Shown: positions 9,932 to 43,713 of the stretch, piece after piece
Layout: each line of letters opens with the position of its first letter
How positions within the stretch are numbered: the stretch's first letter is position 1
Virus record (IMG/VR): IMGVR_UViG_3300031837_000030
Coordinates: 1-43,713 of that record
From: a virus
Reading direction: 5' to 3' (one strand)
Length of the DNA: 43,713 nucleotides
Made by a program: the position numbers and the translations under genes
The notes under the pieces: generated by a model
The model's database searches: none
Seen by the model: the letters and a program-made list of their open reading frames with translations, nothing else
Told to the model about the DNA's origin: nothing

Positions 9932-9943
9932 GTTTTCTCCTGT

Positions 9944-12784: not shown

Positions 12785-12800
12785 AGCTGCGGGGAGGGAG

Positions 12801-13241: not shown

Positions 13242-13711
13242 CTTGCCAGCCTCCAGTTTCCATGCTGAATCTTACCGCTATGTGGAGCTTTTCCGCAGGT
13301 GTAGTGTTCGCCAGTCTGCTCATCATGCTCGCTCAGAAAGCCGCAGACCGCAGTTGTTTCTGCACCCGTAACAGTCGCCCCTTCGGGCAAGTTGAAGCCG
13401 TGGTCATTAGGTTTCGCCATGATGCCAGAGACAAGCGCCTCAAGGTCAGGCTTGCCAATCCTCATCTCTGAGCCAGCGACGGGCGGGTGAGCTTCTGGAC
13501 GGATAGTTATCACGCCCTCAGCGGGAACAGAAATAGTGGTGAAGGTTCTCGTTTCGTCAGTCGCTGCAACCTTGCCCGTAAAGCTGATTTTGGTGTGCCA
13601 AGAACGGCTCTTACACTTCGAGCATTGCGCTGGAGGGTCGATACCAACTGCGAGCCAAGTATGACCGCACGTTACAACCTCACAACGCCAAGCCCAAACC
13701 TGCAATCTCAT
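13238..13711 (-). CDS. Zinc-ribbon protein, 157 aa
   Basis: The N-terminus (WRCEVVTCGHTWLAVG, then CSKCKSRSWH) is a zinc ribbon like those of small nucleic-acid-binding proteins. A beta-rich stretch follows, and a second Cys/His group appears in CGFLSEHDEQTGEHYTCGK. The start ATG 13711 has no evident Shine-Dalgarno sequence, but a 5-bp hairpin (13722-13739) lies just upstream. The gene lies between a structural-type gene and terminase. A DNA- or RNA-binding accessory role is inferred. Confidence 0.65.
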   Translation of the reverse strand: MRLQVWAWRCEVVTCGHTWLAVGIDPPAQCSKCKSRSWHTKISFTGKVAATDETRTFTTISVPAEGVITIRPEAHPPVAGSEMRIGKPDLEALVSGIMAKPNDHGFNLPEGATVTGAETTAVCGFLSEHDEQTGEHYTCGKAPHSGKIQHGNWRLAR

Positions 13712-13748
13712 GTGTTCTATTGTCTCATAAATGCGAGACGTTGGAACA

Positions 13749-14105
13749 CTAACTCACATGAGCAATAACAGAACCCGGCCCTGCGCCTGCCGCCACAGCC
13801 CAGTAGTACGCATAGCCCAGCGTGTCCTGATAGCTTGTGCCAGCAGTAGGCGTGCCCAGAGATACGCCGTTCTGCGGCGCTCCAGAGCTTCCACCCGTAG
13901 GCGGCGTATTCGAGCCGTAGATCGTTGCCCCAATGCCCACGCACTGAAACGTGATGCTCCTACGCGCAACAGCACCCGAATCAAGCGGCGCAATCACACG
14001 CGAAATCGACCCCATTGCAATCGTGTCCGTCGCTGAAAACAAAGGCGTTGTCGTGCCCGAAGAGACTTGAATCGTAAGCGGCCCGTAAGGGTTGAAGAGT
14101 GGCAT
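13749..14105 (-). CDS. Small Gly/Ser/Thr-rich protein, 118 aa
   Basis: Starts MPLFNPYGPLTIQVSS and is rich in Gly, Ala, Ser and Thr with no charge clusters, so it reads like a small all-beta virion protein. It lies 23 bases after the small terminase gene. The segment GSNTPPTGGSSGAPQNG is a flexible loop. One cysteine. A minor structural or decoration protein is possible; no family recognised. Confidence 0.6.
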   Translation of the reverse strand: MPLFNPYGPLTIQVSSGTTTPLFSATDTIAMGSISRVIAPLDSGAVARRSITFQCVGIGATIYGSNTPPTGGSSGAPQNGVSLGTPTAGTSYQDTLGYAYYWAVAAGAGPGSVIAHVS

Positions 14106-18084: not shown

Positions 18085-18888
18085 ATGGCAAGCGGCGTAA
18101 AGGAACTTGAGGGGCGCGTAGGCGTTCGAGACATGGTGCGGTTCGACCCATTCAAAATCAAGGTCGAGAAAAACTTCAACCCCCGCGTGAAGGAAACTCT
18201 ACGCGCCAATATCGACCGCTTGAAGCCCATGATTGCTTCGGCTGGTGGCGTACTTCAGCCTCTCTGGGTGCGCCGCGATGGTGAGGATTGCATCCTGATT
18301 GATGGTGAATCCCGCCTGACTGCCGTCAAGGAACTCATCAAGGAAGGACTTCTGCCGGCAACAGAGGGGAAGGACGACAAGCCCTTTGGTGTTCCTGTTC
18401 TGTGTATGGAAGGTTCCGCGGATGAAGTCACGCGCATCAAGTATGCGATGACAGCTAACGGCGGCGCTCCGCTTGAGAAGTGGGAGATTGGTAAGAACTA
18501 CGCTCGTCTCATCAACCTCGGACAGACAGAGGAAGATATCGCCACGGCGTTCGGCAAGACTCCGCAGTACATCGCTTCCTGTCTCGCTCTCAACGATGCC
18601 GACGACACTGTAAAGCATATGTTGGTAATGGGTGAGGTTTCTGAGGGCAAGGCTGTATCAGCCGTCAAGAAGTTTGGTTCGAAGGCCGCAGAGCACATTG
18701 CGGCGGCTCCGAAAAACGCCAAGGGCAAAGTAGTACGCGAGCGGAAGCAGGAGTTTGACGTGAAAGCTCTCGTAAAGGCTGTGCGTGTACTTCTGGCGGA
18801 TGCCGCCCAACAAGGCAAGCCTGTCGTGTTTGAGATTCATTCCGATCTCGTCCGCGATGTACGCGAAGCAATGAAGGGCGCTAAGTAG
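18085..18888 (+). CDS. ParB/KorB-like DNA-binding protein, 267 aa
   Basis: The N-terminal ParB/Srx domain shows FNPRVKETL, then VLQPLWVRR and the DGESRLTAV box (residues about 30-90), the family's [DE]GxxRxxA signature. A KorB-type HTH follows (TEEDIATAFGKTPQYIASCL, residues about 150-170). The C-terminal part (VKALVKAVRVLLADAAQQ) is helical. It is the first gene of the rightward unit and has no ParA partner nearby, so partition is doubtful. A role as an early regulator or DNA organiser is more likely. Family members bind CTP, but residues for that were not checked. ATG 18085 has a clear ribosome-binding site. Confidence 0.82.
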   Translation: MASGVKELEGRVGVRDMVRFDPFKIKVEKNFNPRVKETLRANIDRLKPMIASAGGVLQPLWVRRDGEDCILIDGESRLTAVKELIKEGLLPATEGKDDKPFGVPVLCMEGSADEVTRIKYAMTANGGAPLEKWEIGKNYARLINLGQTEEDIATAFGKTPQYIASCLALNDADDTVKHMLVMGEVSEGKAVSAVKKFGSKAAEHIAAAPKNAKGKVVRERKQEFDVKALVKAVRVLLADAAQQGKPVVFEIHSDLVRDVREAMKGAK

Positions 18889-19475: not shown

Positions 19476-20258
19476 ATGGACATTGTAAATATGGTCGGTG
19501 GAGTGATTTTTAGCGCAGCGGCGACCGTACTGAAAGACGCGTTGGTTGAAGCGGTAGAGAAGAAGGCCGACCTGCGCAGTGCCGACCTGTACGGTGCCAA
19601 CCTGTACGGTGCCTACCTGCGCGGTGCCAACCTGTACGGTGCCGACCTGCGCGGTGCCTACCTGTACGGTGCCAACCTGTACGGTGCCTACCTGCGCGGT
19701 GCCAACCTGTACGGTGCCGACCTGCGCGGTGCCGACCTGCGCGGTGCCAACCTGTACGGTGCCGACCTGCGCGGTGCCTACCTGCGCGGTGCCGACCTGC
19801 GCGGTGCCTACCTGCGCGGTGCCAACCTGTACGGTGCCAACCTGCGCGGTGCCGACCTGCGCGGTGCCAACCTGTACGGTGCCGACCTGCGCGGTGCCAA
19901 CCTGCGCAGTGCCGACCTGTACGGTGCCGACCTGCGCAGTGCCGACCTGCGCGGTGCCTACCTGCGCGGTGCCGACGGAGAGAAAAAGAAGGCCCACTCT
20001 ATCCGTATCTTTTCATCTTCCCTGTATCCCTTCGTAGTGCTTGCTGTGCTGTTTGAAGATGGGGAGCGCATGGTCAAGATGGGGTGCCTAGAGAAGACAC
20101 TGGCCCAGTGGAAGAAAGTAGGTATCCGTAAGAGCAACTTGTCCGAGTTTCCTGACGACAAATCCGAAAAATGTGAAGATCGCGTCGGTCTGTTCAATCT
20201 GGCTAAGGCTGCGGTTACGCGCATGAATCTGCCACCGAAAGCGAAGGCAACCAAATGA
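19476..20258 (+). CDS. Pentapeptide-repeat protein, 260 aa
   Basis: Residues 31-165 are 27 consecutive A[DNY]L[RY][GS] pentapeptides, which should fold as a right-handed quadrilateral beta-helix. In known cases such helices mimic the shape or charge of DNA. A 30-residue N-terminal helix (VLKDALVEAVEKK) and an 88-residue C-terminal domain with GCLEKTLAQWKKVG flank it. The C-terminal domain resembles those of other phage pentapeptide proteins. The 15-bp DNA units are nearly identical, which implies recent expansion. ATG 19476 has AAGGAG upstream. The target (for example gyrase or a nuclease) is unknown. Confidence 0.88.
   Translation: MDIVNMVGGVIFSAAATVLKDALVEAVEKKADLRSADLYGANLYGAYLRGANLYGADLRGAYLYGANLYGAYLRGANLYGADLRGADLRGANLYGADLRGAYLRGADLRGAYLRGANLYGANLRGADLRGANLYGADLRGANLRSADLYGADLRSADLRGAYLRGADGEKKKAHSIRIFSSSLYPFVVLAVLFEDGERMVKMGCLEKTLAQWKKVGIRKSNLSEFPDDKSEKCEDRVGLFNLAKAAVTRMNLPPKAKATK
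19566..19970 (+). repeat. Tandem array of 27 15-bp units inside the pentapeptide gene
   Basis: The unit is GCC-NAC-CTG-YRC-RGT: Ala and Leu codons never vary, while codon 2 is GAC, AAC or TAC, codon 4 is CGC or TAC, and codon 5 is GGT or AGT. Stops are absent in another forward frame and in an antisense frame, because the period is a multiple of three. Confidence 0.93.
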
Positions 20259-21230: not shown

Positions 21231-22034
21231 GTGCCAGAAAACACGCAAATTGAGCGCGTAGCAACCACGCCGTCAGGGATGCAGCTTCTCGCGGAGCTAT
21301 CCCGCAAGGTGACAGACCCGCAGGCTGCAATTGAGATTGCCAAGCAGATTGTTGACCTTGAAACCAAGTGGGAAGAGATGCGCCAGAGCCGGGACAGATT
21401 CGATTGGGAGAAGTTGGAGCGCCAGGCGAAGGTTGAGTTTGCGGAGGCGTTCAAGAAGTTCAAGGACGATGCTCCCCGGATTCTCAAGACCAAGCACGTC
21501 TACTTCGAGAGCAAGAAGGCTGATTCCCCGGCGACGAGCTACTACCACGTCGAACTGGACAAGGCTTGCGAGCTGCTGATTCCCGCGCTTCTCAAGGTCG
21601 GCATAACGCACCGCTGGAAATGCACAGACCTTCCCGGTGGCATGACCCGCGTTACCTGCTTCCTGCGGCACAGGCTGGGCTATGAGGAGGAGGGCGCTTC
21701 ACTGGCTGGCCCTGCTGACCAGAGCGGCGGCAAGAACCCCATTCAGGGCGTTGGTTCCTCTACGTCCTACCTTGAGCGCTACACGTTCTTGGCTACCTGC
21801 GGCATCGTCGCTTCCAACACGGACAATGACGGCAACTTGCCGGGAATGACTCAGGGTGAGGCTGATATCCACATTGCGGCTATCCGAGCAGAGGAAGACG
21901 CTGTGAAGGTGATGGCGGCATGGACTAAGGCCATCGAATCGGCCAAGAAGTTCACCCCGCCAGATTACCGGGCTATGACTATCTACACCGAAGCGCGAGA
22001 CGAACGCCTGAAGGAATTGAGGAAATCCAAATGA
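21231..22034 (+). CDS. erf: ERF-family single-strand annealing protein, 267 aa
   Basis: ERF proteins anneal single-stranded DNA for phage recombination and circularisation. Residues about 105-125 (ATSYYHVELDKACELLIPAL) and 170-192 (GVGSSTSYLERYTFLATCGI) carry the family's core pattern, including the GSxxSYxxRYxxL-type segment, followed by an acidic DND. The start is GTG 21231 with AAGGAG upstream. The YqaJ-type exonuclease lies two genes on, forming the classic exonuclease-annealase pair. The C-terminal 60 residues are helical and acidic. Confidence 0.85.
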   Translation: MPENTQIERVATTPSGMQLLAELSRKVTDPQAAIEIAKQIVDLETKWEEMRQSRDRFDWEKLERQAKVEFAEAFKKFKDDAPRILKTKHVYFESKKADSPATSYYHVELDKACELLIPALLKVGITHRWKCTDLPGGMTRVTCFLRHRLGYEEEGASLAGPADQSGGKNPIQGVGSSTSYLERYTFLATCGIVASNTDNDGNLPGMTQGEADIHIAAIRAEEDAVKVMAAWTKAIESAKKFTPPDYRAMTIYTEARDERLKELRKSK

Positions 22035-22270
22035 CCACGACCATTGTTAGGTGTGACCTATGCAAAGAGGAACTACCCGCCCAATCCAAGAAGGTTGCCG
22101 TGCAGATGGTGTTCACCACGGAGCAAACGGAGGGTAGAAGCACTACCCCATACCTATCCCTTGAGAGTATTGATTGCTGCAAGAAATGTCTTGACCGACT
22201 AATCGACAGCCATCCCCTTCACGCCTCTGGCGCACAAGGCTACAACGATTACCAATGGAGGCAGCAATGA
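22031..22270 (+). CDS. Small zinc-binding protein, 79 aa
   Basis: Two cysteine pairs, VRCDLCKEEL near the N-terminus and DCCKKCLD near residue 50, form a likely zinc finger around a beta-rich middle. ATG 22031 overlaps the ERF stop (ATGA) and the next start overlaps its stop. It sits between annealase and exonuclease, so it may be a recombination partner; this is inference. Confidence 0.7.
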   Translation: MTTTIVRCDLCKEELPAQSKKVAVQMVFTTEQTEGRSTTPYLSLESIDCCKKCLDRLIDSHPLHASGAQGYNDYQWRQQ

Positions 22271-22968
22271 GCAGAATCATTCGATGCACTCAAGGCGACG
22301 ACCTCTGGATAGCAGCACGCGTTGGCCGCATCACTGGCTCCAACGTAGACGCTCTCCTTGCCCCGCCAACGAGCCGCCAGTCCACGCGCAAGGGAATCAC
22401 CTACCCAGCTGGCACAGAGGCTCTAGAGAAGGCTGAGTACCGCCAGAAGCTCATCGTGGAGCGTATCTACGGGCGTGCTGTGGGCAACGTGACCACGCAG
22501 TACATGAGGGACGGCTCCGACCGGGAAGAGTTCGCCCGGATGCTCTACGAGGTTGACACGCAGCAAGTGGTTGAGCTGGTAGGATTCGCCCTGCACCCTC
22601 TCTGGGATTGGTTTGGAGCGTCTGCGGATGGTCTGGTAGGCGATAAGGGCGGCGTAGAGCTAAAGTGCCCGGCTGAGACTACGCATGACACCTACGCCCA
22701 GGACATCAACCTGCTAGTGGATGAGTACAAGGGCCAAGTTCTCGGCAACCTGATTTGCTTCCCCGAGCGCGACTGGTGGGACTTGGCGAGTTTCCAGCCC
22801 TACGCCCCGGATGCAATCAAGCTGCTCAAAGCTCCCCGCTTCCACCGCTCCGACTGGAAAGAAACCATCGCCAAGATCGAATTCAATGCGCTGGAGATGA
22901 ATGAGCAGATTGAGGCAGAGATCGCGAAGCGTGGTCTACCGCCTACGGTTTGGAGAATTATCGAATGA
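22267..22968 (+). CDS. YqaJ-type exonuclease, 233 aa
   Basis: A lambda-exonuclease-like nuclease that resects DNA ends to feed the annealase. ATG 22267 (MSRIIRCTQGDDLWIAARVGRITGSN) overlaps the upstream stop; the ORF from 22255 is not needed. The WxxxRxGxITGSN opening and the catalytic set WFGASADGLVG...GGVELKCP (Asp, then Glu-Leu-Lys) at residues about 119-137 are characteristic. A helical region with VLGNLICF and a C-terminal helix complete the fold. The ERF gene lies just upstream. Confidence 0.87.
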   Translation: MSRIIRCTQGDDLWIAARVGRITGSNVDALLAPPTSRQSTRKGITYPAGTEALEKAEYRQKLIVERIYGRAVGNVTTQYMRDGSDREEFARMLYEVDTQQVVELVGFALHPLWDWFGASADGLVGDKGGVELKCPAETTHDTYAQDINLLVDEYKGQVLGNLICFPERDWWDLASFQPYAPDAIKLLKAPRFHRSDWKETIAKIEFNALEMNEQIEAEIAKRGLPPTVWRIIE

Positions 22969-25406: not shown

Positions 25407-25628
25407 GTGACATACGAAGAGCAGCAGCTACGGGAAGAATTGAACCGGGTACAGGAAGAGGACAAGACCCTTACAAAGCGTTTTTACGAATGTATGTCTG
25501 GGCAAGCCATTTGGCGGGAAGGCGAGCGCCAGCAGATTAGCAGCAAGTTTGAGGCTAACAGTGAGACAATCCGCCATCTCGAAAAGCGAATTTTTGCGCT
25601 AGAGTTTGCTCGCATGGGGGAGGCATGA
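25407..25628 (+). CDS. Coiled-coil protein, 73 aa
   Basis: Starts at GTG 25407 after AAAGGG. Almost entirely helical, with heptads in EEQQLREELNRVQEEDK and SETIRHLEKRIFALEF. It overlaps the helicase start by ATGA (25625), so it is translated with the helicase and may be its small partner. Function unknown. Confidence 0.72.
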   Translation: MTYEEQQLREELNRVQEEDKTLTKRFYECMSGQAIWREGERQQISSKFEANSETIRHLEKRIFALEFARMGEA

Positions 25629-27166
25629 GCCAGTACGGTCTAATCCGCCCGACCAATGAGATAGCTTTGCGCCCGTTGCGCCCTCGTCAGGAGGCGGCTA
25701 TCGCGGCCATACGTTTGGCTATACGGAGCGGCAAGCGGAAAATCATACTCATGCTGCCTACGGGTGGCGGGAAGACGCTCATAGCCGCGCATATCATCGC
25801 TGGGGCTATCGAGAAGGGCAAGAAGTCGATGTTTACCTGCCCAGCCATCAACCTCGTAAATCAGACCCTACGGGCGTTTGAGGCTGAGGGCATCCGAGAC
25901 ATAGGCGTGATTCAAGCGCAGCACGAGCGGACGGACTGGCAAGCGCAGACGCAGATTGCATCCGTACAGACGTTGGTGCGGCGACCACTGCCAGAGGTTG
26001 ATTTGGTCATTATCGACGAGGCGCACGAGCGGCATGAAAAGTTAGAAGCCATCATCCTGTCTGACGCTTGGCGAGATAAGGTCGTAATTGGACTCTCAGC
26101 TACGCCGTGGAGCAAGGGGCTGGGGCTGGTTTGGGATGAGCTAATTGTCGCAGCGACCACGCAGCAGCTAATCGAAGAGGGTTGGCTCACTCCGTTCCGC
26201 ATCTTCGCGCCGTCCGTGATGCCAGATTTTCGCGCCATGAAAATCAAGGCAGGAGAGTTTGAGGATAAATCCACCTCTGCGGAAATGAGCAAGAAAACCA
26301 TCATCGGCGACATCGTGAAAGAGTGGCAAGAGAAAGCGCATGGTTTGCCCACGTTTCTCTTTTGCGTTGACCGAGCGCACGCCAAGATCGCCAGAGATGA
26401 GTTTCAACAAGCCGGAATCGGATGCGGATACATGGACGGCGAATCAACGCCAGATGAGCGCAGAGAAACATTCAAGGCGTACCGCTCCGGCGAGACTCCC
26501 ATCATCGCATCGGTAGGAACGCTCATCACAGGCATAGATGAGGATGTGCGTTGCATCGTTGACGCGCAGCCTACGAAGTCGCAGATTAGGCTTGTGCAGA
26601 AATTAGGCAGAGGGATTCGTTTGGCGGACGGAAAAGACAGCCTCATCATCCTTGACCCTGCGGCGAACTGCTTACGCCTGGGACTCATTACAGATATTCA
26701 CCACGACACGCTAGACACTCGCAAGCCCGGAGAGAAGGGCGAAGCATATGCCGATGAGCCGGAGCCACCGAAGCCTCGCAAATGTAAAGAGTGCCGCGCT
26801 ATTATGCCGCCGTCCGCTAAGACTTGCCCGAACTGTGGGAAGGTGTGGTTTTCTACGAGCGCGGTACAGATTCAAGACGGCGAACTGACTGAGTTTATCG
26901 GCGGCACAAAGCCGAAGAAAGAGCCGAAACCAAAGCGCGACGAGAAGCAGGATTTTTACAGCGGCTTACTCTACATCGCCCAAACTCGTGGATTCAAAGA
27001 TGGTTGGGTCGCCCACAAATATCGTACAAAGTTTGGCGTTTGGCCTGTTGGTTTAGAGCGTGTTCCGAAGGCTCCTATCAAGGCAGTAAAAGAGTTTGAT
27101 GCAGAGCAAACTCGGCTGTATCGTGAGTCGAAGAAGTCAGCGCCACAAGTTGAAGCAACAGCATAA
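25625..27166 (+). CDS. DEAH-box superfamily 2 helicase, 513 aa
   Basis: Motifs in order: LRPRQEAAI, Walker A LPTGGGKT (residues about 44-51), Ia TCPAINLVNQ, II IIDEAHERH, III GLSATPW, IV FLFCVDRAHA, V IASVGTLITGID and VI QKLGRGIRL. A zinc ribbon CKECRAIMPPSAKTCPNC follows (residues about 388-405). The basic C-terminal tail (KPKKEPKPKR, then FYSGLLYIAQTRGF) resembles those of phage helicases that remodel replication or recombination intermediates. It is the only helicase seen; no primase or polymerase lies nearby. ATG 25625 overlaps the upstream stop. Confidence 0.9.
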   Translation: MSQYGLIRPTNEIALRPLRPRQEAAIAAIRLAIRSGKRKIILMLPTGGGKTLIAAHIIAGAIEKGKKSMFTCPAINLVNQTLRAFEAEGIRDIGVIQAQHERTDWQAQTQIASVQTLVRRPLPEVDLVIIDEAHERHEKLEAIILSDAWRDKVVIGLSATPWSKGLGLVWDELIVAATTQQLIEEGWLTPFRIFAPSVMPDFRAMKIKAGEFEDKSTSAEMSKKTIIGDIVKEWQEKAHGLPTFLFCVDRAHAKIARDEFQQAGIGCGYMDGESTPDERRETFKAYRSGETPIIASVGTLITGIDEDVRCIVDAQPTKSQIRLVQKLGRGIRLADGKDSLIILDPAANCLRLGLITDIHHDTLDTRKPGEKGEAYADEPEPPKPRKCKECRAIMPPSAKTCPNCGKVWFSTSAVQIQDGELTEFIGGTKPKKEPKPKRDEKQDFYSGLLYIAQTRGFKDGWVAHKYRTKFGVWPVGLERVPKAPIKAVKEFDAEQTRLYRESKKSAPQVEATA

Positions 27167-29990: not shown

Positions 29991-30359
29991 CTACTTTGTG
30001 ATGGAGTTGAAAACAGAAACTGCGTTTTTCCAAGACGCCACAGCCGCCGCTACAGCCGCGTTGAGCGCCGACGCATCCCCACCGCCTGCCTTGTGGTACG
30101 CCTGCTCTGCAAGATCGGCGGCGTTTAGGAGTCCGTTGAGCGCGTTCATGGCGTCAAGCTGGGCCTGCGTCAGTTGCAGCTTGCCCGACTGGATTGAGGT
30201 TGAGATAGACAATGCGAATGCGTGCGCGGGCTGAAGCGCGGTATTCGCTGCTGCGTCGATGGAATCCACTGCGCCAACGGGAGGAGCAGGGGGCGGCGCG
30301 GCAGTGACGTGACAACCTGCAAGAATCAGGACAGCAAGTAGGGCGAGCTTACGGGACAT
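29991..30359 (-). CDS. Lipoprotein, possible o-spanin, 122 aa
   Basis: ATG 30359 (MSRKLALLAVLILAGCHV) has a signal peptide with lipobox LAGC, Cys16 being the lipid site. A Pro/Ala-rich linker follows, then helices (LTQAQLDAMNALNGLLNAADLAEQ). Small phage lipoproteins beside endolysins are usually outer-membrane spanin subunits, though this one is helical rather than Pro-rich throughout. It overlaps the two-helix membrane gene upstream by 11 bases. Confidence 0.72.
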   Translation of the reverse strand: MSRKLALLAVLILAGCHVTAAPPPAPPVGAVDSIDAAANTALQPAHAFALSISTSIQSGKLQLTQAQLDAMNALNGLLNAADLAEQAYHKAGGGDASALNAAVAAAVASWKNAVSVFNSITK

Positions 30360-30696
30360 TGGGCGCTCCGGGGGTGCTTGGTGGGATTGTGGGGTCAGGG
30401 CCGGTAGTTTTCTGAGCGATGACAGTTTCCTGACCACTCGGACTCTTGCTCGCCAATACCGTCTCCTGAATGACGTTCTGGACGGGTGACTGAATGAGGT
30501 ACAGCCGCACGCAACCGCCAGCCGTAGCCGCCACGATGCCCGCGAACTTGGCGATGCCGCCTTTGGTGGTGAAGTCAGCGAATGGAGCCGCCATGAGCGA
30601 TGTGACCACACCCATCAGAACGAACACTTCCAAACCCTTGAGCCAAGTTCGGACTGGGGCGGGAACCTTCTGCCAGTAAGAAATGATGGTCTTCAT
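30349..30696 (-). CDS. Two-helix membrane protein, candidate holin, 115 aa
   Basis: Two hydrophobic segments (VFVLMGVVTSLMAAPFA at about 25-41 and FAGIVAATAGGCVRLYLI at about 51-68) are linked by a short charged loop; the N-terminus is basic and the C-terminus is Pro/Thr-rich and soluble. This layout fits a class II-type holin. Start overlaps the upstream gene (ATGA, 30693-30696). Located next to the endolysin and lipoprotein genes, as expected for lysis genes. Confidence 0.65.
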   Translation of the reverse strand: MKTIISYWQKVPAPVRTWLKGLEVFVLMGVVTSLMAAPFADFTTKGGIAKFAGIVAATAGGCVRLYLIQSPVQNVIQETVLASKSPSGQETVIAQKTTGPDPTIPPSTPGAPNVP

Positions 30697-30908: not shown

Positions 30909-31039
30909 GTCTTCTTGCCTTTCCGCTCCGCATCATCTTTTTCCAGTTGCGCGGCCCGCTCCCAATATCCGTTATCCCGCAGCAGTTGAATGTAGTCTGC
31001 GAGGGTCGGTTGTTTTACGCGTTCGCTCTTTTCAGCCAT
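30905..31039 (-). CDS. Small soluble protein, 44 aa
   Basis: ATG 31039 lies inside the endolysin 3' end; the stop overlaps the next GTG start. The product (MAEKSERVKQPTLADYIQLLR and on) is charged and helical. Coupled on both sides, so it is probably translated. Function unknown. Confidence 0.6.
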   Translation of the reverse strand: MAEKSERVKQPTLADYIQLLRDNGYWERAAQLEKDDAERKGKKT

Positions 31040-31536
31040 GTTTTCAGGTAAATCGCATCCTGCGGGTTGCGTGCGACTATCTGATTGTATCTTGCCACAC
31101 GTTGTACCCTGTATGCCGCAACCAGACGGTCAGAGTCGAGCGCGTTGGCCGCATCGAGGGTAAGAGGCCCAATCTCTCCATCAGGCGCAAGGGGAGGCGT
31201 TTGACCGCAGCAGTTGATGGCGTCCTGCAACAGAATCGCGCCGACGTGCGGGCCAGCATTGACCGCCTCATCCAGCACGCGGTTGGCTACGTCCTGCGAT
31301 TCCAAACCGCCAAGAAGTAGGGGAGTCCAGAAGTTAGCCTCGTAGAACGCCTGGACTGCCGGCAGACGGTCGGACTGAGGCAGCGCGGCAATCTTGTCAA
31401 AGTCAAGGGGCCAAGCGGCAGAGTTGATGCCGGAGATAGCGCGAGCGCCAGCGGGAGCATCTGGAACTTCTGCGCAATACTTCTCGGGATCTTCAAACTG
31501 CATGATGTAGTCGAAAGCTGGCGGGAACTGGCTCAA
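31015..31536 (-). CDS. Endolysin, GH108-like N-acetylmuramidase, 173 aa
   Basis: Hydrolyses the glycan backbone of peptidoglycan at lysis. The start is placed at TTG 31536, which overlaps the upstream stop (TTGA) and has GAGG eight bases away; the longer frame to 31629 is covered by a small gene in another frame. The likely catalytic Glu is in IMQFEDPEKY, followed by GINSAAWP and FYEANFWTPLLL. The end DGEIGPLTLDAANAL is a peptidoglycan-binding segment typical of the family. The usual EGGY motif is altered, so activity should not be taken for granted. Confidence 0.72.
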   Translation of the reverse strand: MSQFPPAFDYIMQFEDPEKYCAEVPDAPAGARAISGINSAAWPLDFDKIAALPQSDRLPAVQAFYEANFWTPLLLGGLESQDVANRVLDEAVNAGPHVGAILLQDAINCCGQTPPLAPDGEIGPLTLDAANALDSDRLVAAYRVQRVARYNQIVARNPQDAIYLKTWLKRANA

Positions 31537-31655
31537 TTTGAAAACCTCTGAATGAGATAAAAGCAGAAAATGATGCCCAGAACCAAACAGAGCAACAGGA
31601 CGCTCCCGCCAAACGGTTGCTGCGGCCAATCTGGGGGACGCTCTGGCTGATTCAT
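31533..31655 (-). CDS. Small membrane protein, 40 aa, lysis cassette
   Basis: ATG 31655 overlaps the upstream small gene's stop. The product is Pro-rich at the N-terminus (MNQPERPPDWPQQPFGG), then one transmembrane helix (SVLLLCLVLGIIFCFYLI) and a short basic tail. Its stop overlaps the TTG start of the endolysin, so translation is coupled. Pinholin-like size; role inferred from position. Confidence 0.62.
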   Translation of the reverse strand: MNQPERPPDWPQQPFGGSVLLLCLVLGIIFCFYLIQRFSN

Positions 31656-32075: not shown

Positions 32076-35000
32076 TTAAGGGCAAAACATATTGAAAGTG
32101 TATGCGGAGCTGGTCGCCAACCCCGCCGCTGAAGCAAAAACGCTCGTGCTTGTAGCCAGTGCGCTTCCGGCATCGACATCGACCAACACCCCAGTAGCGG
32201 GAATGCTGGCTGCGGCATAGGTGCAATAAGGAACGTGGCCTCTATTTTGGGTGTAAGCGACGGTGAAAACGAGAGCACCAGGGGTCGGTACGCCCGTAGT
32301 GGTGAAGCTAATCTGAAAATTCACGTCCGTGCCAACTATGGTTACTCCGGTCGGCGTACCCCCCGCACCAGCGCCGAATGTAATGTTGCCGGTGCTCTGC
32401 GCTGTCTCCCCTACGAAGCCGTTGGATTGCACCTGCGGAAACTGTACTGCTGCGGCTCCGCTAGAACCAGTTGCGTCGGAGAAGACTAATATCTTAGTGG
32501 GGTTCGCTCCAGTGCCATACTGGACGCACTGAGTGAAGGTGTCTCCTGCTGTAGCCGACCCAGTCCAATACTGGCCGGATAGCCCAAAGCACGGGCTGTT
32601 CCGATTAGCCCCACTCGTCGCTGCGGTCACGTTTTCCACCAGCACAGGAGTGGTGGCTGCTGCGCCGATGTACGTGCTGGTTCCGGTATAGGCGTTGTTC
32701 CCAACAAAGGTAGGAACATTGAGGGTAAGGTCATACCACGCAGGCGCGACAGAGGCAGAACCAACAGGAGTATCGGAATAGGCGAAGACGTGCGCCGTAG
32801 TCGTCGGCCCCGCCAAGCGCGTCGCGGCTCCAGATGCACCTCCGTAGATAGTGTCACCCAGCGTCGTCATGGGGTTGGTGATTCCGGTCGGACACAACCC
32901 ATTGCCCGGTGTGCAAACCAGGTTCGTGCTTCCGCTTCCTCCCGAGTGCATCGTCGCTGCCTGAATATCGTAGGCCGAAGTTGCATTTCCGCCAAACTGC
33001 ACGGTTGCGCCGGTGGTCGGGCACGCTGGCGGAATAACTGTGTTCGAGAAACTGTACCCCAGCCCGATAATTCCACCGCCAGTCGTACAAATACCCAGTG
33101 GGTCGCCGGGGGAAGCTGGAGCGCCAACTCCAAAGTAGGCGGCGTTCGATGTGCTACCCGTACCGGCATATTGAAAGGCGATGTAAGTGTAGTTGAGGGC
33201 GGTCGGCGCTGTACCGACAACAATGCCGGTCCCGGTGGATTGCCCAGCAGCAATGTTCGGCGCAAGGAATTGCGCCATAGTCACGCCTATGTTGCCCGTC
33301 TCTGCAAAGTTATTAGTTACATTCAAAGCGCTGGAGGCGCTCCCGGAAGTCACGATATTCAGCGCATCGCCGGTTGGGTTAGTGATGGTTTGACTTCCCG
33401 TAGGATTCAGGGCAACGCAAGTTGTAAGCAAGCAGGGCGTGCCTGAAGCATCGGGCCATGTGATATACGTTGCATCCGCCTGACCAGAAGGTATCGTGAG
33501 TGTGGCAGACGCTCCTGAGTGAGAGTTGACTAGCGTCTGTATGTTTGTGGGGGGCTGGGCGTTGAATGTCGTCGTCCAAGGGGTTTGGGCTACATCGACA
33601 TTGTTCCACCCAATTGTCCCCGTCCCGGCGTCTGTCGATCCATCGGAGATTTCGTCGTTGGTCATAATGGTGCCAACGGCTCCCGCTTGAATCGCAAAAA
33701 GCCCTTCGCTCAAAGTGATTTCATTGCTTATCCCAGAGATATTCAGGTTGCCGTTGAGTCCCTCGAAGTGGTTGCGAGCGCCTGCCACAGTGCTTGTTAC
33801 GGTAGGAGCTTCATCCAATACATTGTTGAACACGTTTCCTACGCCGTTGCAACCGTTTGTGTTGCAGCCCACCACCATATTTTGATAGTTGTTGGAAAAC
33901 TGACCGCCATTCACTGTAATGGCTGCGGCCTGAGGCATATTCAAACCGATGCCAGAGCATCCTTTCACCACAGGCATCGTCAGCGTGAACTGGCTGGAAG
34001 GGAAAGTGGAGCCGCCATCCAATCCATTGCTGAATGTCAATCCATTTACGCAGGTGCTAGACCCCGGAACCCCATAAGGGCCAGCCAAGAGATCCCTCAA
34101 GTCACTCTGGCCGTTCCAAAAATCCGCTTCAAAAGCGGAGATACTGCCCCCACTAAAATACACGTTGTCCATGATGGAGGACGTGCCTACTCGAATAGTG
34201 TAAAAGGCATAGCCAGCATTTGCGTTTGACGAGAAGGCGATGTCTCTAACGTCCATCCTTATAAAAACGGTGCCCGTTGGTATGCCTGCATAAAATCCGG
34301 CAGTGACGGTGCCCGACCCTGTGTAGATGAGGTAGGTTGCTCTAGCATCCTCCCCGCGCAAACATAAATAAACCGGCGAGGTGCTATTCCATGTGATTTG
34401 GGAGAGATGAGCATAGCCACCGCTCGGGAAGTAAACACATGTCCCCGGGTGAGCTATTTCGTAAGCAAGAGCAGCGTTGATGGCCGCTGTATTATCCGTG
34501 CCGGTGGTTCCGTTCCAGTCGCCCACCGCCCCGAAAGAGAGAGCCGAAACACTCTGGCAGATGCCGTTGTTCCATGCGCAGATGGTTGAAGGGGTAAGAG
34601 AAGGATTGTTGCATCCAAAAACACCGTCAGTGGTAGGGCTCGCCGTACAAATGGCATTCGGTTCTGTAGTGTGGCTAATGTTGTACGGGCTTGCTGCCAG
34701 CGCCGCTTGCAGGTTGAAGGCCGATTGCAGGTAATTCGTTCCATCGCTGTAAACCTGCACAAGCGCCCCGTTTGGGATGGTTATGCCTGTACCAGACGGG
34801 CCTATGACCTGAATCGCTTGACCGCCCGTTGTGGCATTTTCCACCACAAAGCTAAAACCAAGATTTAGAGGCGCGATGAGATTCCGCGTGGCTGTCAGGG
34901 AAACACTGCTCGTCACCTTGAGAAAGCCCTGCGCTGTAGTTTCGGGATAGACCATCGTGTGATTGGCGTCCGAAGAAAACACGAGATTGCCGCTATTGAG

Positions 35001-35120
35001 CAACGGGAAAATTCCGCCTGAGCCAATGGTTCCGGTGAGCGGAATCTGAGGGTACGGAACTGACTGTGCATAAGCGCAAGAGCAGAGGCATAGCGCGATG
35101 AGCAACTTAATAATTCGCAT
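32076..35120 (-). CDS. Tailspike with pectate-lyase-like domain and signal peptide, 1014 aa
   Basis: The start is ATG 35120, one base after the upstream stop; the longer frame to 35153 is inside that gene. Residues 1-18 (MRIIKLLIALCLCSCAYA) are a Sec signal peptide with AxA cleavage before QS. Residues 193-240 (LSFGAVGD, TDNTAAINAALAY, CVYFPSGGY) are the opening of a pectate-lyase-like right-handed beta-helix, as in phage tailspikes that degrade surface polysaccharide. The rest is Gly/Ser/Thr/Ala-rich beta sequence with over 20 cysteines, unusual for a cytoplasmic virion protein. Follows a second signal-bearing tail gene. Confidence 0.78.
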   Translation of the reverse strand: MRIIKLLIALCLCSCAYAQSVPYPQIPLTGTIGSGGIFPLLNSGNLVFSSDANHTMVYPETTAQGFLKVTSSVSLTATRNLIAPLNLGFSFVVENATTGGQAIQVIGPSGTGITIPNGALVQVYSDGTNYLQSAFNLQAALAASPYNISHTTEPNAICTASPTTDGVFGCNNPSLTPSTICAWNNGICQSVSALSFGAVGDWNGTTGTDNTAAINAALAYEIAHPGTCVYFPSGGYAHLSQITWNSTSPVYLCLRGEDARATYLIYTGSGTVTAGFYAGIPTGTVFIRMDVRDIAFSSNANAGYAFYTIRVGTSSIMDNVYFSGGSISAFEADFWNGQSDLRDLLAGPYGVPGSSTCVNGLTFSNGLDGGSTFPSSQFTLTMPVVKGCSGIGLNMPQAAAITVNGGQFSNNYQNMVVGCNTNGCNGVGNVFNNVLDEAPTVTSTVAGARNHFEGLNGNLNISGISNEITLSEGLFAIQAGAVGTIMTNDEISDGSTDAGTGTIGWNNVDVAQTPWTTTFNAQPPTNIQTLVNSHSGASATLTIPSGQADATYITWPDASGTPCLLTTCVALNPTGSQTITNPTGDALNIVTSGSASSALNVTNNFAETGNIGVTMAQFLAPNIAAGQSTGTGIVVGTAPTALNYTYIAFQYAGTGSTSNAAYFGVGAPASPGDPLGICTTGGGIIGLGYSFSNTVIPPACPTTGATVQFGGNATSAYDIQAATMHSGGSGSTNLVCTPGNGLCPTGITNPMTTLGDTIYGGASGAATRLAGPTTTAHVFAYSDTPVGSASVAPAWYDLTLNVPTFVGNNAYTGTSTYIGAAATTPVLVENVTAATSGANRNSPCFGLSGQYWTGSATAGDTFTQCVQYGTGANPTKILVFSDATGSSGAAAVQFPQVQSNGFVGETAQSTGNITFGAGAGGTPTGVTIVGTDVNFQISFTTTGVPTPGALVFTVAYTQNRGHVPYCTYAAASIPATGVLVDVDAGSALATSTSVFASAAGLATSSAYTFNMFCP

Positions 35121-35121
35121 A

Positions 35122-36249
35122 TTAGCTCGCAATCCTTGGGGAATACATCCCAAACAATAAGTTAGTGGTCTGGTACAGGTACATCGTGACAGTCACACCG
35201 TTTACATTGACGAAGGTCACAGTCGTCGGCGCGTTGAAGGCCATCGGGAAGCCAGTATTGTTATCAACCATCGTGTGCGTGCTGCCAGTTAGTAGTAGAT
35301 AAATCACCTGAGACGATGTAGTGTATGAGCCGATAATCTGCCCAACCTGCTCCACGCCAAGCCCTGCGCTTGCAATGACATTGCTGGTACTGAGCAGCGC
35401 GGATGTTCCCGTAGCGGTCACGGTCGAAGTAGCACCCGCCGCGCCTACGCCGCCGAAGATGCGAGGGTTCCATGTGTATGTTTGATTTGCCGTCTGAGTG
35501 CTGGAACCGACCGCCGTCAATGTAACTGTCGTGGTGTGAATCGCGGAATGCGTGAAAGTCCCAACAATCGTTCCCGAAGTGAAGGGCGTTGTCAGTGCCA
35601 ACGGAGAATCTACGTTGTCTGTGTTGGTGATTGTGGCGCTCGCCGGGGTTGCGGTATAGAGCGCCGAGCACGTTGGATTCGTAACCGAAGCGCCCAACTC
35701 CAGTGAACCATTGCAACCCGTAAACGAGTTGATGGCAAACGCGGCGGTCGTGCTGATGGTGATAGAACTTCCGGCAGTCGTGCATGTCAAGCCAGTACCG
35801 CAGAGAATCGACAACGCACCAGTGAGCGTGTTGAGCGATGAAACGCCAGAACTGCCACTACCGCCCCCACCAACTGAGAAATTGAACGGCCCATAGGTTG
35901 CACCGCTCTGTGTTCGCAGTGTGTAGGCATATTGCCCCGGCAGAAACCATGCTCCTGCATTTCCCTGTGCGTCGGCCTGATTCGTGCATGACGCCGAACC
36001 CTGCAAAACCACATTAGAACCTGTGGGACACGGAGAGGTGGAAGAAACTGAGTTGTAGGTGTTCGCCGGAGTCGAGCAATTGCCCGCCGTGCAGGAAAAG
36101 AAAGATACCCCAGCGTAGGGCAGAGCGTAGACGGGCAACTGCTGGCCGCTGCCTCCGGTTGTGCTGGCGAAGGGGATGTCGTAGCGCACGTTCTGGGCGC
36201 ACAAGGGAAGGGCTATTAGAAGCGCCAATAGTGTTAGGATTTTCTTCAT
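35122..36249 (-). CDS. Tail-fibre-like protein with signal peptide, 375 aa
   Basis: ATG 36249 has GGAGG seven bases upstream and overlaps the upstream stop (TAATG), so the start is firm. Residues 1-18 (MKKILTLLALLIALPLCA) form a clear signal peptide, cleaving before QN. The mature part has about nine cysteines in small clusters (CTAGNCST, LCGTGLTC) and a Gly/Ser linker (VGGGGSGSSGVSS), then Ser/Thr-rich beta repeats typical of fibres. It comes between the ejection genes and the tailspike, the usual place for a receptor-binding or adaptor fibre. Confidence 0.72.
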   Translation of the reverse strand: MKKILTLLALLIALPLCAQNVRYDIPFASTTGGSGQQLPVYALPYAGVSFFSCTAGNCSTPANTYNSVSSTSPCPTGSNVVLQGSASCTNQADAQGNAGAWFLPGQYAYTLRTQSGATYGPFNFSVGGGGSGSSGVSSLNTLTGALSILCGTGLTCTTAGSSITISTTAAFAINSFTGCNGSLELGASVTNPTCSALYTATPASATITNTDNVDSPLALTTPFTSGTIVGTFTHSAIHTTTVTLTAVGSSTQTANQTYTWNPRIFGGVGAAGATSTVTATGTSALLSTSNVIASAGLGVEQVGQIIGSYTTSSQVIYLLLTGSTHTMVDNNTGFPMAFNAPTTVTFVNVNGVTVTMYLYQTTNLLFGMYSPRIAS

Positions 36250-39536: not shown

Positions 39537-39905
39537 CTATGTCACCTTGAACGCCTTCCACGTCTCCTGCCACCCAAACCTTTTCATCATCGTTGCTGCA
39601 AACCCTATGCCAAACTTGGGCGAGATGAAACAAAACGCCCCCGATGGAAAAACCTTCCGCAACGCCTCGTGCAAGAGAGCAATTCCCTTCAACCGCACCA
39701 CAACATGCGGTCTGCGGTCGCAAATCATCACGAGTTCGGGAACCATCTTCACTCCGCACATCATAATCGGCGTATCTTCCTCATCTACAACAACAAAGGC
39801 GTGCTGTAAGTCCTTCGGAAAGCCATCGTCAAAGTTCAGTTGCAACTCATTGTATATCGCTTCCAAAATAGGCAGGTCGCGGGCTTCTAGCGGGCGCGTG
39901 GTCAT
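39537..39905 (-). CDS. GNAT-like protein, possible T7 gp13 analogue, 122 aa
   Basis: Starts MTTRPLEARDLPILEAIYNE, the opening of GNAT acetyltransferases, and continues with strands (HAFVVVDEEDTPIMMCGVK) and a C-terminal RFGWQETWKAF. The acetyl-CoA loop (Q/RxxGxG/A) is not evident, so activity is doubtful. T7 gp13, an internal virion protein with a GNAT fold, sits next to ejection proteins in the same way. ATG 39905 overlaps the upstream stop. Confidence 0.68.
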   Translation of the reverse strand: MTTRPLEARDLPILEAIYNELQLNFDDGFPKDLQHAFVVVDEEDTPIMMCGVKMVPELVMICDRRPHVVVRLKGIALLHEALRKVFPSGAFCFISPKFGIGFAATMMKRFGWQETWKAFKVT

Positions 39906-40468
39906 ACCTTACCCCGCTGCGGTGGTTTGCTGCCGCGATATGGAATTGGCCCGAAGCCGCTGAGTCCAGAACCGGGGCGTCCAGTACCACCACCCTGCGA
40001 TGTTCCACGTGGAACACTCACGCCGCCCGTCACTGGCATGGGCGTTGTGCCACCGTGGAAAACTGGAGTCGTGTTGCTGCTCGTCGGGTAGGAAGCGAAC
40101 GCCTGAAAGTAAAGTTTTTGGCTTCCCGTCGCAAGATTTATCTCCCGCGATGGGCCGCTGTACTCAGGGAAGGGGTTGGTCATCTGCGGACTCTCGGAAG
40201 ATTCCACATGATAGGTGCAGCCCTGATAGAAGTCTGCTCCGTGCGCGATGGAAACATGATGCCCGACCCCCGTAGGCGTGACTGTCACTGACTGTAGCGG
40301 CGGCGGGGGGTGTGGGGTTCCTTCGAGACTCGAATTTGTCTGCTGGGCTACTTGCTTCGTGTTCGTGTGCAGGTCAGAAACTAGTTCGTGAAGACGCGCC
40401 CCAAACTCAGGGTGCCCCTCCAGCTTGAGGGTGCGTATCCAATCGAGATTGCGCGGAGTTTCCGGCAT
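39902..40468 (-). CDS. Hypothetical virion-associated protein, 188 aa
   Basis: Residues 1-45 form a helix-rich domain (RLHELVSDLHTNTKQVAQQ), then a Pro-rich linker (PHPPPPLQ), a beta-rich middle (GVGHHVSIAHGADF) and a Gly/Pro/Arg-rich tail (GGTGRPGSGLSG). Starts one base before the tail gene's stop ends (TAATG). Likely a tail or neck accessory; family not recognised. Confidence 0.62.
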   Translation of the reverse strand: MPETPRNLDWIRTLKLEGHPEFGARLHELVSDLHTNTKQVAQQTNSSLEGTPHPPPPLQSVTVTPTGVGHHVSIAHGADFYQGCTYHVESSESPQMTNPFPEYSGPSREINLATGSQKLYFQAFASYPTSSNTTPVFHGGTTPMPVTGGVSVPRGTSQGGGTGRPGSGLSGFGPIPYRGSKPPQRGKV

Positions 40469-43400
40469 TATTTGTTCGCTCCGGTGATTTTAAGTTTTGC
40501 ATCTGCAATGAACGCTGTAAGCCGTGTCATTTTGAAGCTGTTGTCCGTCCCTTCAGTGGGAAACGAGGCAATCTTGATGGCGATTCTGTCGCCAGTGCAT
40601 TGACCGCCGCCAAACTCTCTGTCCTTGAAATAGTTCGGGGTGAGAGTACGAGTTGTGGATAACTTCCACAATCTTTGTAGGGAATCAGAATAGTAACTGC
40701 ACGTTACTTTGCCGACACCTTGCACGTAGATTCTCAGGTAGGCAAGCAAAATACGAAGCCCCTTGAGTTGCAACGCCTGCGCCTTTTCAGGATCAAGGAA
40801 AAAGTAGGTGACGTAGTAAGGTTGCACGAGTCCAAAGTCCTCATCCGTGAGAAGTGCCGGGTTCAGTGTGTAGATATTTCCGAACCCCGCCGATTCGCCG
40901 TAAGCCTGTCCATTGCCGCCCAACATCACCAACGTCAGCGCCGCTCCGTTCGATCGATACATCCGCACCGCGCCGTTCATCGGAAGGTTCCACGGCGCCC
41001 ACTTGCGCGAATTGTCTGTCGCAATCAGCTTTCCAGCAAATGACGGGTGGAACGGCGGCGAACCAGCAATCGCTGAGGCTGAGTTGAGGTTGCGATAGTT
41101 CAGCACGTAGATTTTATTCGGAGCCGTAGCAGCACCAATGGGTACGCCGAACATCAGCAGCCGCTGTACGGGGTCATTCAAACCCCAGACTGTCAGCGCC
41201 GCGTCCATGTTGATTTGGATGGCCGTATTGCTCTTGGTAGGGTCATACCAGTTTGGCTGAATCTCTTGGCTGATTTTTTCAACAGTTCCCCCGCCGAAGA
41301 TAACCGCTCCGCCTTCGGTGGGCCATGCCATCCAATCATCCCCACCCGATGAAGTAACGTCATCCGCTTGCGAGTGAGTGAGGCTGATAGCCGAGAGAAT
41401 TCCGCAATCCGCAGAGACTTCATTGACCTGCCAGCCCGAAGGCTCGGTGACGCCGCTGCCGGTGGTTTCGTGCAACCGTCCCGAAGGGGCTTGTGTGAGC
41501 AAATAGAGCGTATCGCGGAGGATGCCTATGTCCATCAGCTTAGATGGGTCATTGTTGGGGCCAAACTGCCCCGACACGCCATCGACTCCCTCTGGGTTGT
41601 TGAGATACGAGCCATATGCCAACTCATCCGTGTAGGGCGTTTCTGAGTCGATGAGCATTGTCTCGGATAGCGTGGCCTGACCGCTGAAGATTTGATAATA
41701 GAGAACCGTGTCAGGCGGTATGCTGTCTGGTGTTGGCAAGTTAAATTCTTGCTGATACCATCCGGTTTTTGTGAAATTAATTATCGCTTGCGTCTGAAAT
41801 CCAGTTACGGGGCTTGTGATGGTTGCAACAAAACTCCCCGGCGACTGCACAACAAGGTAGCACCTAAAAATATAGGTCACACCCGTTGGGTCATCGTCTA
41901 CAATCCCAATCGGAGCGCCATAGGCATCTTCATAGAATCCCTGAGATAGCCCAGCCGTTCCAAGCGCGGCGTTCATGTTCCACGCCTGACCACCAAACCT
42001 GCCTGCAACAAGAGAGCCGCCGTTACCTGTTATAGTCCAACCCAGTGGCACAGTAGGCGCTAGAGCAGAAGCGCCACCACCAAATCCCATATTGAGCAGG
42101 TTGTTGATGATGTTTCTTTGGCCCCACGTTAGCAGACGCGATTCGTAAGCGCCAAAGCCCAAAGCCCCATCGAGCTTTATCTGATTTGCCAAAGTGTTAC
42201 CGGGAATAGATATGCCGAGCGCCGCGTAGAGCGTATTGTCTGAGAAATCCAGAACAACAGAGGTCGTGGTGTTGTCGTTTACCTGCGTGGAAGTGCCGAT
42301 AATCTGGCCTTCCGTCTGTGGTGTTTGCGGAATATAAAAGAACGGCGGCAACTCACCCGGCACATTCGGTTGCGCTCCCGTAAATGCAAGGATTCTCGCC
42401 TTAACATACGAAGGCCCGATAGGAATATTCGTTACCGATAGATATTGTCCTCCGTTCGCAATAATGGTGACGGGTGGAGATGGTGCGGGAATTGCTCCCT
42501 CGTCCGTCAACCAAAGCACCTCCATCAAGTGAAGCCCCGGCGCTGCTTGTCCAAAGGGTGTCACAGTTCCTATCGCAGTCGTCGCTCCGTTCGGCCCATA
42601 CTGCCTATATATGAACTGCGTTGGAGAAATAACCCCCGTCACATAGAAAGTTCCCTCCCACGCAAAACCCACAGTGCCCGTTGTCCACCTTCCATCGGAG
42701 TAGGAAACCGCCACATAGAAAGTCGTCGGGGTCGGGGCGGATTCCACGTTGAAGTAGGTCGGTGTCGGTGTGTTGTCAGGAATCGGCCACGCAATAGTGA
42801 TATTTCCTGTGCTTCCTGTTGCGTTGATAACGTCTGGGTCAACTGCTGTGATGGGAGTTTGAATGTAGGTGATCTGGTTTGGCGAGGGAACGGTATCGAC
42901 CGTAAATGTTCCATTGAAACTAAATGCAGTTGTTCCTGTTGCGGTTGTGACTCCCGCAATCTGAACGACACTGCCCGGATTCAGGTTGTGACTCGCTGTT
43001 GTGGTGATTGTAGTTTTACCAGCCGACCACTGCGCTTCAGCAATCGTGGTAATGACACCCGGCTCGACTCCAACAATAGAAACCGATATGCCCGGAACAA
43101 GCCCATGTGGCTCTGTCGTTGTCACCAAAGCTAGACCGGGTTCCGTCTCATTGTTGATGACGATAGAGCTAACGAAGGCAACTGTACCCGTACCAGATAG
43201 TGTGTAGTAGACAGTCACCGCAAAAGGCTGACCGATGAAGACGCGCGAAGTATCTGTAACGACCGCCATAGAAAAACCGAAGGTCGGGTCGTTCACGATA
43301 GCCGGAGTCAGCGCCGCTCCCCACTGGTCGCCCGCGCTTCCATAAGTCACCGTATTGTAAGAAGTGGTGAATGGAGTTCCCGGCGTTTTAGCTGTTCCGA

Positions 43401-43713
43401 GTAGACCACTGCCATTCCAGAGAGCGGCCTGCGAGAGATAGCTTGTTGTAGCGAATTGCGAGATGAGAACCGCGCTGATGGTGACGCCAAGAATTGTCGC
43501 GGCTGAAGGAATGGTGAAACCTAGCCCCGCAACGGTCATATCGCCCAAAGCCGTGGTCACTGGCTCGAAGTGAGTGCGGAACTGAGTTCCTACATACTGC
43601 CAATCGCCACCGACATTGCCGGGGTTTCCGTTCATGCTCTGGTTTACATCTGTTGAGTTGGAGTCCGGCATGTTAGAAATCTGTGCCTGATAGCCGACGA
43701 GAAGATTGTGCGG
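40468..43713 (-). CDS. Large tail protein, main part (starts at 712 across the junction)
   Basis: This frame stops at 40468 and is the same gene whose N-terminus is at 1-712; the ATG at 43671 is internal. In the 1,276-residue protein, two or more copies of a module TTxxHxLxPGxxVxIxGV occur (EPHGLVPGISVSIVGV, ASHNLNPGSVVQIAGV), small beta modules typical of phage tail proteins. The C-terminal half has aromatic and Asp-rich segments (YVTYFFLDPEKAQALQLKGL) as in podovirus tail nozzle or needle proteins. No tape-measure-like helical protein is seen in the genome, so a short tail is likely. Exact role unproven. Confidence 0.82.
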   Translation of the reverse strand, partial: PHNLLVGYQAQISNMPDSNSTDVNQSMNGNPGNVGGDWQYVGTQFRTHFEPVTTALGDMTVAGLGFTIPSAATILGVTISAVLISQFATTSYLSQAALWNGSGLLGTAKTPGTPFTTSYNTVTYGSAGDQWGAALTPAIVNDPTFGFSMAVVTDTSRVFIGQPFAVTVYYTLSGTGTVAFVSSIVINNETEPGLALVTTTEPHGLVPGISVSIVGVEPGVITTIAEAQWSAGKTTITTTASHNLNPGSVVQIAGVTTATGTTAFSFNGTFTVDTVPSPNQITYIQTPITAVDPDVINATGSTGNITIAWPIPDNTPTPTYFNVESAPTPTTFYVAVSYSDGRWTTGTVGFAWEGTFYVTGVISPTQFIYRQYGPNGATTAIGTVTPFGQAAPGLHLMEVLWLTDEGAIPAPSPPVTIIANGGQYLSVTNIPIGPSYVKARILAFTGAQPNVPGELPPFFYIPQTPQTEGQIIGTSTQVNDNTTTSVVLDFSDNTLYAALGISIPGNTLANQIKLDGALGFGAYESRLLTWGQRNIINNLLNMGFGGGASALAPTVPLGWTITGNGGSLVAGRFGGQAWNMNAALGTAGLSQGFYEDAYGAPIGIVDDDPTGVTYIFRCYLVVQSPGSFVATITSPVTGFQTQAIINFTKTGWYQQEFNLPTPDSIPPDTVLYYQIFSGQATLSETMLIDSETPYTDELAYGSYLNNPEGVDGVSGQFGPNNDPSKLMDIGILRDTLYLLTQAPSGRLHETTGSGVTEPSGWQVNEVSADCGILSAISLTHSQADDVTSSGGDDWMAWPTEGGAVIFGGGTVEKISQEIQPNWYDPTKSNTAIQINMDAALTVWGLNDPVQRLLMFGVPIGAATAPNKIYVLNYRNLNSASAIAGSPPFHPSFAGKLIATDNSRKWAPWNLPMNGAVRMYRSNGAALTLVMLGGNGQAYGESAGFGNIYTLNPALLTDEDFGLVQPYYVTYFFLDPEKAQALQLKGLRILLAYLRIYVQGVGKVTCSYYSDSLQRLWKLSTTRTLTPNYFKDREFGGGQCTGDRIAIKIASFPTEGTDNSFKMTRLTAFIADAKLKITGANK
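43587..43713. repeat. Exact end repeat of the contig (right copy)
   Basis: Identical to 1-127 (see that entry). It marks the circle junction; a true map has one copy, and all coordinates from 43587 on duplicate 1-127. Confidence 0.93.

Follow-up and report, generated by a model that had tools for sequence, protein, structure and literature searches.

To our knowledge, the T7 gp17-type tail fibres and P22-type tailspikes of tailed phages lack signal peptides, and their assembly takes place in the cytoplasm. Here, we have analyzed a viral DNA of 43,713 nucleotides (IMG/VR virus record IMGVR_UViG_3300031837_000030, positions 1 to 43,713; the whole stretch is hereafter called the window), in which two adjacent minus-strand genes, P1 and P2, encode cysteine-rich, fibre- and tailspike-type proteins with predicted Sec signal peptides. 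Sec-exported, disulfide-bonded tail fibres of a tailed phage were not described in the open-access full texts searched (subscription papers and preprints lay outside their scope), and the nearest described things were exported tailspike- or fibre-like proteins of bacteria: WceF of Pantoea, a tailspike-like protein whose export signal uses Tat (PMC7949094), and the MAT fibres of Bdellovibrio, in which an export signal is followed by a beta-rich domain of ∼130 amino acids (PMC10769870). By description, both resemble P1 and P2 in combining tailspike or fibre folds with an export signal, whereas their genes are bacterial and serve the bacteria themselves.

The closest cultured phages belong to a set of five phages of Acidobacteriota isolated by Demina et al. 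(2025; PMC11924767), which includes Tunturi 1 and 2 (PP887698 and PP885685), podophages of Tunturiibacter psychrotolerans. As in the window, a run of genes in the fibre cassette of Tunturi_1 carries signals (gp12, gp13, gp14, gp16 and gp17, with 20, 10, 20, 1 and 32 mature cysteines, respectively). Tunturi_2 gp12 was virtually identical to Tunturi_1 gp12 at the protein level, and gp14 and gp17 of Tunturi_2 also had signals; the main text of the Tunturi phage paper makes no mention of signal peptides. In contrast, the structural proteins of Tunturi_1 showed no convincing blastp similarity to those of the window. Two other phages of the same host genus, Tunturi_3 (podovirus) and Tunturi_4 (siphovirus), also differed from the window, since their fibre or tail proteins that were checked had no signals and few cysteines, although repeats of the Tunturi_3 tail fibre gp15 matched the C-terminal part of P2. 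Thus, the trait appears to belong to the phage lineage, and a host trait was rejected as the cause of the signals.

P1, a putative exported fibre/adaptor protein of 375 amino acids, is encoded at 35122-36249 on the minus strand (open reading frame (ORF) with a GGAGG Shine-Dalgarno sequence and an ATG start overlapping the upstream stop) and occupies the tail-fibre position between virion genes on its upstream side and the lysis genes; the relatives share this upstream context. P2, a putative exported tailspike-like protein of 1014 amino acids, follows at 32076..35120 (minus strand); TTG 35153, which is the end given in the ORF list, was rejected as its start, because ATG 35120 follows the P1 stop and places the signal at the N-terminal end. 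By using a rule-based caller that looks for a charged n-region, a hydrophobic h-region and agreement with the −3/−1 rule, a tripartite signal peptide with a −3/−1 cleavage site was found in both proteins. The predicted signal of P1 (MKKILTLLALLIALPLCA; 36196..36249, minus strand) is followed by QNVR and that of P2 (MRIIKLLIALCLCSCAYA; 35067..35120, minus strand) by QSVP, with cleavage expected after residue 18, before Q19, in each of them. Given a false-positive rate of 1.4% (6/425 ORFs of at least 150 amino acids from other viral loci), chance is an unlikely source of two adjacent calls, and such signals recur in relatives of the window. The next methionine was found at residue 327 in P1 and residue 56 in P2; none is close to the mature start of either protein, and therefore a cytosolic isoform from an internal ATG is unlikely.

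With one of its nine cysteines inside the signal, P1 would retain eight in 357 mature residues (2.2%), whereas P2, with three of 23 inside the signal, would retain 20 in 996 (2.0%). For comparison, only six cysteines were present among the 12,950 residues (0.046%) of 31 virion proteins encoded upstream in the window or its relatives, and these proteins lacked signals except for a doubtful call on a 109-amino-acid gene in L096 and L097 (labels of this form denote viral contigs). The suggestion of the first-pass annotation that both proteins have signal peptides cut after residue 18 and cysteine-rich mature parts was therefore borne out, and relatives behave alike. An oxidising cytoplasm was considered and rejected as the cause of the enrichment, because the upstream virion proteins and the signal-less orthologs described below were nearly cysteine-free. 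The mature cysteines of P1 are near neighbours in sequence (53/58, 74/88, 150/156 and 179/194).

Comparison of P1 orthologs revealed that the cysteines follow the signal. We collected 15 distinct proteins with a common C-domain, 11 of which had a signal and four of which had none. Each of the 11 signal-bearing proteins possessed 4-10 mature cysteines, whereas the signal-less ones possessed 0, 0, 0 and 1 (Fisher p = 7e-4, a value that ignores relatedness). The C179/C194 pair was found in 10/11 and 0/4 of the two groups, respectively, and the linker pair CGTGL[ST]C was replaced by AVGAGLSV or AAGPGLSI in the signal-less forms; P1 of L092 had an extra pair at two other sites. The cysteine pair of the P2 N-domains was also lost jointly (GCQGFPC to GAQGFPV or GSGGVFPN). 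The four signal-less orthologs (L094, L099, L100 and L101) start with other N-termini. The first 113 residues of the L101 protein, as in podovirus tail fibres, matched tail-protein families (phrog_1640, tail protein, 7e-11; phrog_5510, tail fibre, 9e-7), the N-domain of L099 and L100 was common with the signal-bearing L102, and that of L094 with the signal-bearing L098. L094 (no signal, no cysteine) and L098 (signal, four cysteines) were sisters with a support of 99/94. The signal state changed at least 2-3 times on the P1 tree, and an independent-pairs test gave the expected direction in 2/2 supported pairs, which are too few for significance. As judged from these sequences, paired cysteines are gained and lost together with the predicted export signal. 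Homologs starting downstream of the signal had been proposed as a check on export; signal-less orthologs do exist, but they have a different N-terminus and have lost their cysteines, which supports export. In the same four contigs P2 carries a signal while P1 does not, which suggests the hypothesis of a virion-borne P1 receiving an exported P2.

The number of cysteines provides another line of evidence. If all cysteines of a mature exported chain are bonded within the chain, their number should be even. We counted cysteines in 40 signal-bearing fibre proteins of full length, five of which came from Tunturi_1 and the other 35 from the window or its relatives. An even number of mature cysteines, with counts from 2 to 46, was found in 38, whereas only 28 had an even number when the signal was kept on; 15 proteins have cysteines inside the signal. 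The probability of such parity is 7e-10 against a rate of 0.5 and 9e-7 against the control rate of 0.61. Among signal-less control proteins with at least two cysteines, even numbers were found in 112/183 from marine viral loci and 49/92 from Tunturi genomes, and signal-less tailspike relatives were even in about 5/13. In a fresh set of four contigs fetched with Tunturi_1 gp13, 11 out of 12 called signal-bearing fibre genes were even (p = 0.003 against 0.5 and 0.02 against 0.61). This parity fits signal cleavage after the predicted site, and together with the covariation it suggests that the proteins are indeed exported, cleaved and disulfide-bonded. Thus, attachment after export, one of the options raised by the first-pass annotation, appears to be favored.

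Another of those options, that the N-terminal helix of P1 and P2 is an uncleaved anchor embedded in the membrane or the tail while the protein stays on the cytoplasmic side, does not predict a rise of even counts from 28/40 to 38/40 upon removal of the signal, in a set in which 15 proteins have signal cysteines. In favor of an anchor, some phages use hydrophobic N-terminal segments, as in SAR endolysins, and signal cleavage is so far a prediction from sequence. However, the segments are short, they end in c-regions of the signal peptidase I type that are mostly followed by Q, and the cysteine pairs are absent from signal-less P1 orthologs; we therefore regard an anchor as very unlikely. Lipidation of P2 (LCSC, residues 12-15) or of other such proteins, which would hold them at the outer membrane until lysis, seems slightly less probable still. 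The cysteine-rich c-region of the P2 signal speaks for it, but LCSC is an atypical lipobox, LPLC of P1 does not fit the pattern [LVI][ASTVI][GAS]C, and a cut before C15 would leave an odd number of cysteines in P2 (21), compared with 20 after a signal peptidase I cut.

The identity of P1 and P2 as tail-fibre- and tailspike-type proteins is supported by their position and domains. The conserved C-terminal domain of P1 (residues 170-375, including the C179/C194 pair; 35122..35742, minus strand, defined by alignments) is encoded by 16 IMG/VR contigs. Its AlphaFold2 (AF2) model had a predicted local distance difference test score (pLDDT) of mostly 73-91, apart from mature residues 248-278, where confidence was low, and the best Foldseek matches were uncharacterised phage proteins and tail-fibre proteins (probability 1.00 for tail fibre); confidence was low for the rest of P1. 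In P2, a conserved N-domain of ∼115 amino acids (PQIPLTGTIG...SDGTNYL; 34716..35057, minus strand, by alignment) adjoins the signal. This domain was modelled with a pLDDT mostly above 90 and gave weak Foldseek matches to N-terminal regions of tailspikes, such as Solidus gp83 and CBA120 TSP4; the rest of P2 was of low confidence. The P2 body may be read as a tailspike from a beta-helix start motif, FGAVGDWNGTTGTDNTAAI, which is common to other viral proteins. A further segment (residues 825-922; 32355..32648, minus strand) is homologous to repeats of the signal-less tail fibre gp15 of Tunturi_3 (blastp E 8e-8), from which its two cysteines (SPCFGL...FTQCV) are missing. With the window proteins themselves, megablast and tblastn searches of 50,697 phage records (using the region, P1 and P2) and Pfam and PHROG searches (using P1 and P2) returned zero matches, a PDB sequence search gave nothing useful, and no gp17-like N-terminal virion-binding domain was detected in P1 by Pfam or PHROG; among the orthologs, only that of L101 matched tail-protein PHROGs with its N-terminus.

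P2-type proteins consist of a signal, the conserved N-domain and a variable body. The N-domain occurred without a signal in each of 27 more distantly related viral proteins that were inspected (a subset of L018-L083), some of which matched tail-fibre or tail-spike PHROGs, so it appears to be an ordinary tail-protein domain that follows a signal in this lineage. Similar to T7 gp17-type fibres and P22-type or pectate-lyase-like tailspikes, the window genes precede the lysis genes and combine a conserved N-domain, a variable C-terminal part and, by motif, a beta-helix-type body; they differ in that they have Sec signals, predicted to be cleaved, and that their cysteines all appear to be paired. 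Capture from secreted host proteins, also raised at first, would mean that the phage carries P1 and P2 as accessory cargo with no relation to the tail. Secreted proteins with a beta-helix are widespread in cells, yet the fixed tail-fibre position, the fold of the P1 C-domain, the N-terminus of the L101 protein and the signal-less viral tail relatives of the P2 N-domain all argue against such an origin, which we consider the least probable of the alternatives.

When IMG/VR was scanned with P1 and P2 as well as with the N-domain of P2 and the C-domain of P1, ∼15 distinct related contigs from soil phages were obtained. At least one fibre-cassette gene with a signal was present in every one of them, and usually all cassette genes had one; some signals that the caller had missed were identified by visual inspection. 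The longest run comprised six consecutive signal-bearing genes (L089:3644-14163), one of which encodes 1848 amino acids with 40 mature cysteines. The trait was also found in four more distant contigs and, as mentioned above, in Tunturi 1 and 2. Therefore, Sec-signal fibres are shared by a wider group of phages and are not the single-phage oddity as which they were first treated. L094 contains a second P2-like gene with a signal (9714-13799), whose frame is broken in pieces by either sequencing error or decay. Signal-bearing tailspike genes were also observed in further, apparently unrelated viral contigs, including L120 (4191-10207) and L127 (3432-6569). A search of genome contigs with the P2 N-domain gave four distant matches only, and thus no direct host assignment was made; an Acidobacteriota host is plausible in view of the comparison with the Tunturi phages.

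Taken together, we favor, with moderate confidence, a model in which P1 and P2 are receptor-binding tail proteins that are exported by Sec, acquire disulfide bonds in the periplasm and dock on virions as the cell lyses or afterwards. P1 and P2 would be made with cleavable signal peptidase I signals and cross the inner membrane; they would then fold in the periplasm with several local disulfide bonds, presumably with Dsb-type oxidation and trimerisation there, while virions are built without them in the reducing cytoplasm. Lysis would mix the two compartments and finished fibres might dock on the tail. Of these steps, the sequences support the export signal, full pairing of the cysteines and the fibre- or tailspike-type identity, and indirectly the cleavage, whereas periplasmic folding, trimerisation and docking are inferred. 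Precedents for late attachment are the tailspikes of P22 and the long tail fibres of T4, both of which can be added to particles in vitro. The more general proposal, a two-compartment virion assembly of a tailed-phage lineage with heads and tails made in the cytoplasm, disulfide-bonded fibres made in the periplasm and the two joined only at lysis, has in our view a slightly better than even chance of being correct.

On the other hand, the exported fibres might be released or held in the envelope without joining the virion, and bind or degrade glycan of the host surface. They would then serve as decoys for superinfection exclusion, shield progeny from adhering to debris or work as a diffusible depolymerase. 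Secreted adhesins and enzymes normally combine export with disulfides, secreted proteins resembling tailspikes or fibres are used by bacteria (WceF, PMC7949094; MAT fibres, PMC10769870), and some contigs (L089) have up to six such genes. However, P1 and P2 fill the tail-fibre slot in a probably complete genome in which no second clear fibre gene was found, and in the sister phage L101 the C-domain of P1 is joined to an N-terminus of ordinary tail-fibre type. For these reasons docking is favored, and a purely secreted role is considered possible but rather unlikely. Several observations weigh against docking of exported fibres or against the evidence for it. Several signal-bearing P1 forms have no obvious virion-binding N-domain, L098 P1 has a signal but not the C-domain cysteine pair, the two further signal-bearing tailspikes of L120 and L127 have odd cysteine counts (13 and 15), and, as far as our searches show, exported fibres have been described in no tailed phage. 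The 40 proteins of the parity set share domains, so that the p-values overstate their independence, although numbers and sequences vary widely. In addition, a 1067-amino-acid protein (40468-43671) with a weak local match to a tail-fibre PHROG could hold a receptor-binding part, and P1 and P2 need not be the sole such proteins.

The record has an exact direct terminal repeat of 127 base pairs (1-127 and 43587-43713) and thus probably represents an entire phage genome that is circularly permuted. Read across the record ends, its minus strand encodes a terminase (12991-11135, phrog_979), a portal-size gene, a capsid candidate, the 1067-amino-acid protein and nearly cysteine-free virion proteins, followed by P1, P2 and the lysis genes, an order that we take to be a T7-like podovirus layout with P1 in the tail-fibre position. 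The 393- and 520-amino-acid virion genes located 5′ of P1 (36249..38977, minus strand), probable internal or ejection proteins by position, are cysteine-free and without signal peptides and serve as an in-genome control. The lysis genes (all minus strand) comprise a GH108/PG_binding_3 endolysin (31015-31629; Pfam PF09374 and PHROG endolysin) and, by sequence inspection, a probable holin (30349-30696) and a lipoprotein-like spanin candidate (near 29991-30359). A 122-amino-acid acetyltransferase-like protein lies in the virion module (39537-39905, minus strand), and small annotated acetyltransferases are also present in the virion modules of Tunturi 1-3. On the plus strand are a strong pentapeptide-repeat protein, possibly a DNA mimic (19476-20258; Pfam 4.5e-54), and a replication/recombination block with ParB-like, ERF recombinase, RecE-like exonuclease and helicase genes (18085-18888, 21231-22034, 22255-22968 and 25625-27166). 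A twin-arginine-like export signal, MNRRQLFKGAAALVAATVLPLPALA, was observed on a hypothetical protein of L108 (42137-42649, minus strand), also present as Tunturi_3 gp49.

Textbook assembly of tailed phages is cytoplasmic, and Sec-exported fibres, if true, would add a second assembly compartment. Disulfide chemistry would become available to make receptor-binding proteins rugged in soil, and fibres would be attached in the lysate, where co-infecting phages could exchange them on virions. With regard to annotation, such fibre genes may be mistaken for host secreted proteins. The cultured Tunturi 1 and 2 phages make this proposal directly testable.

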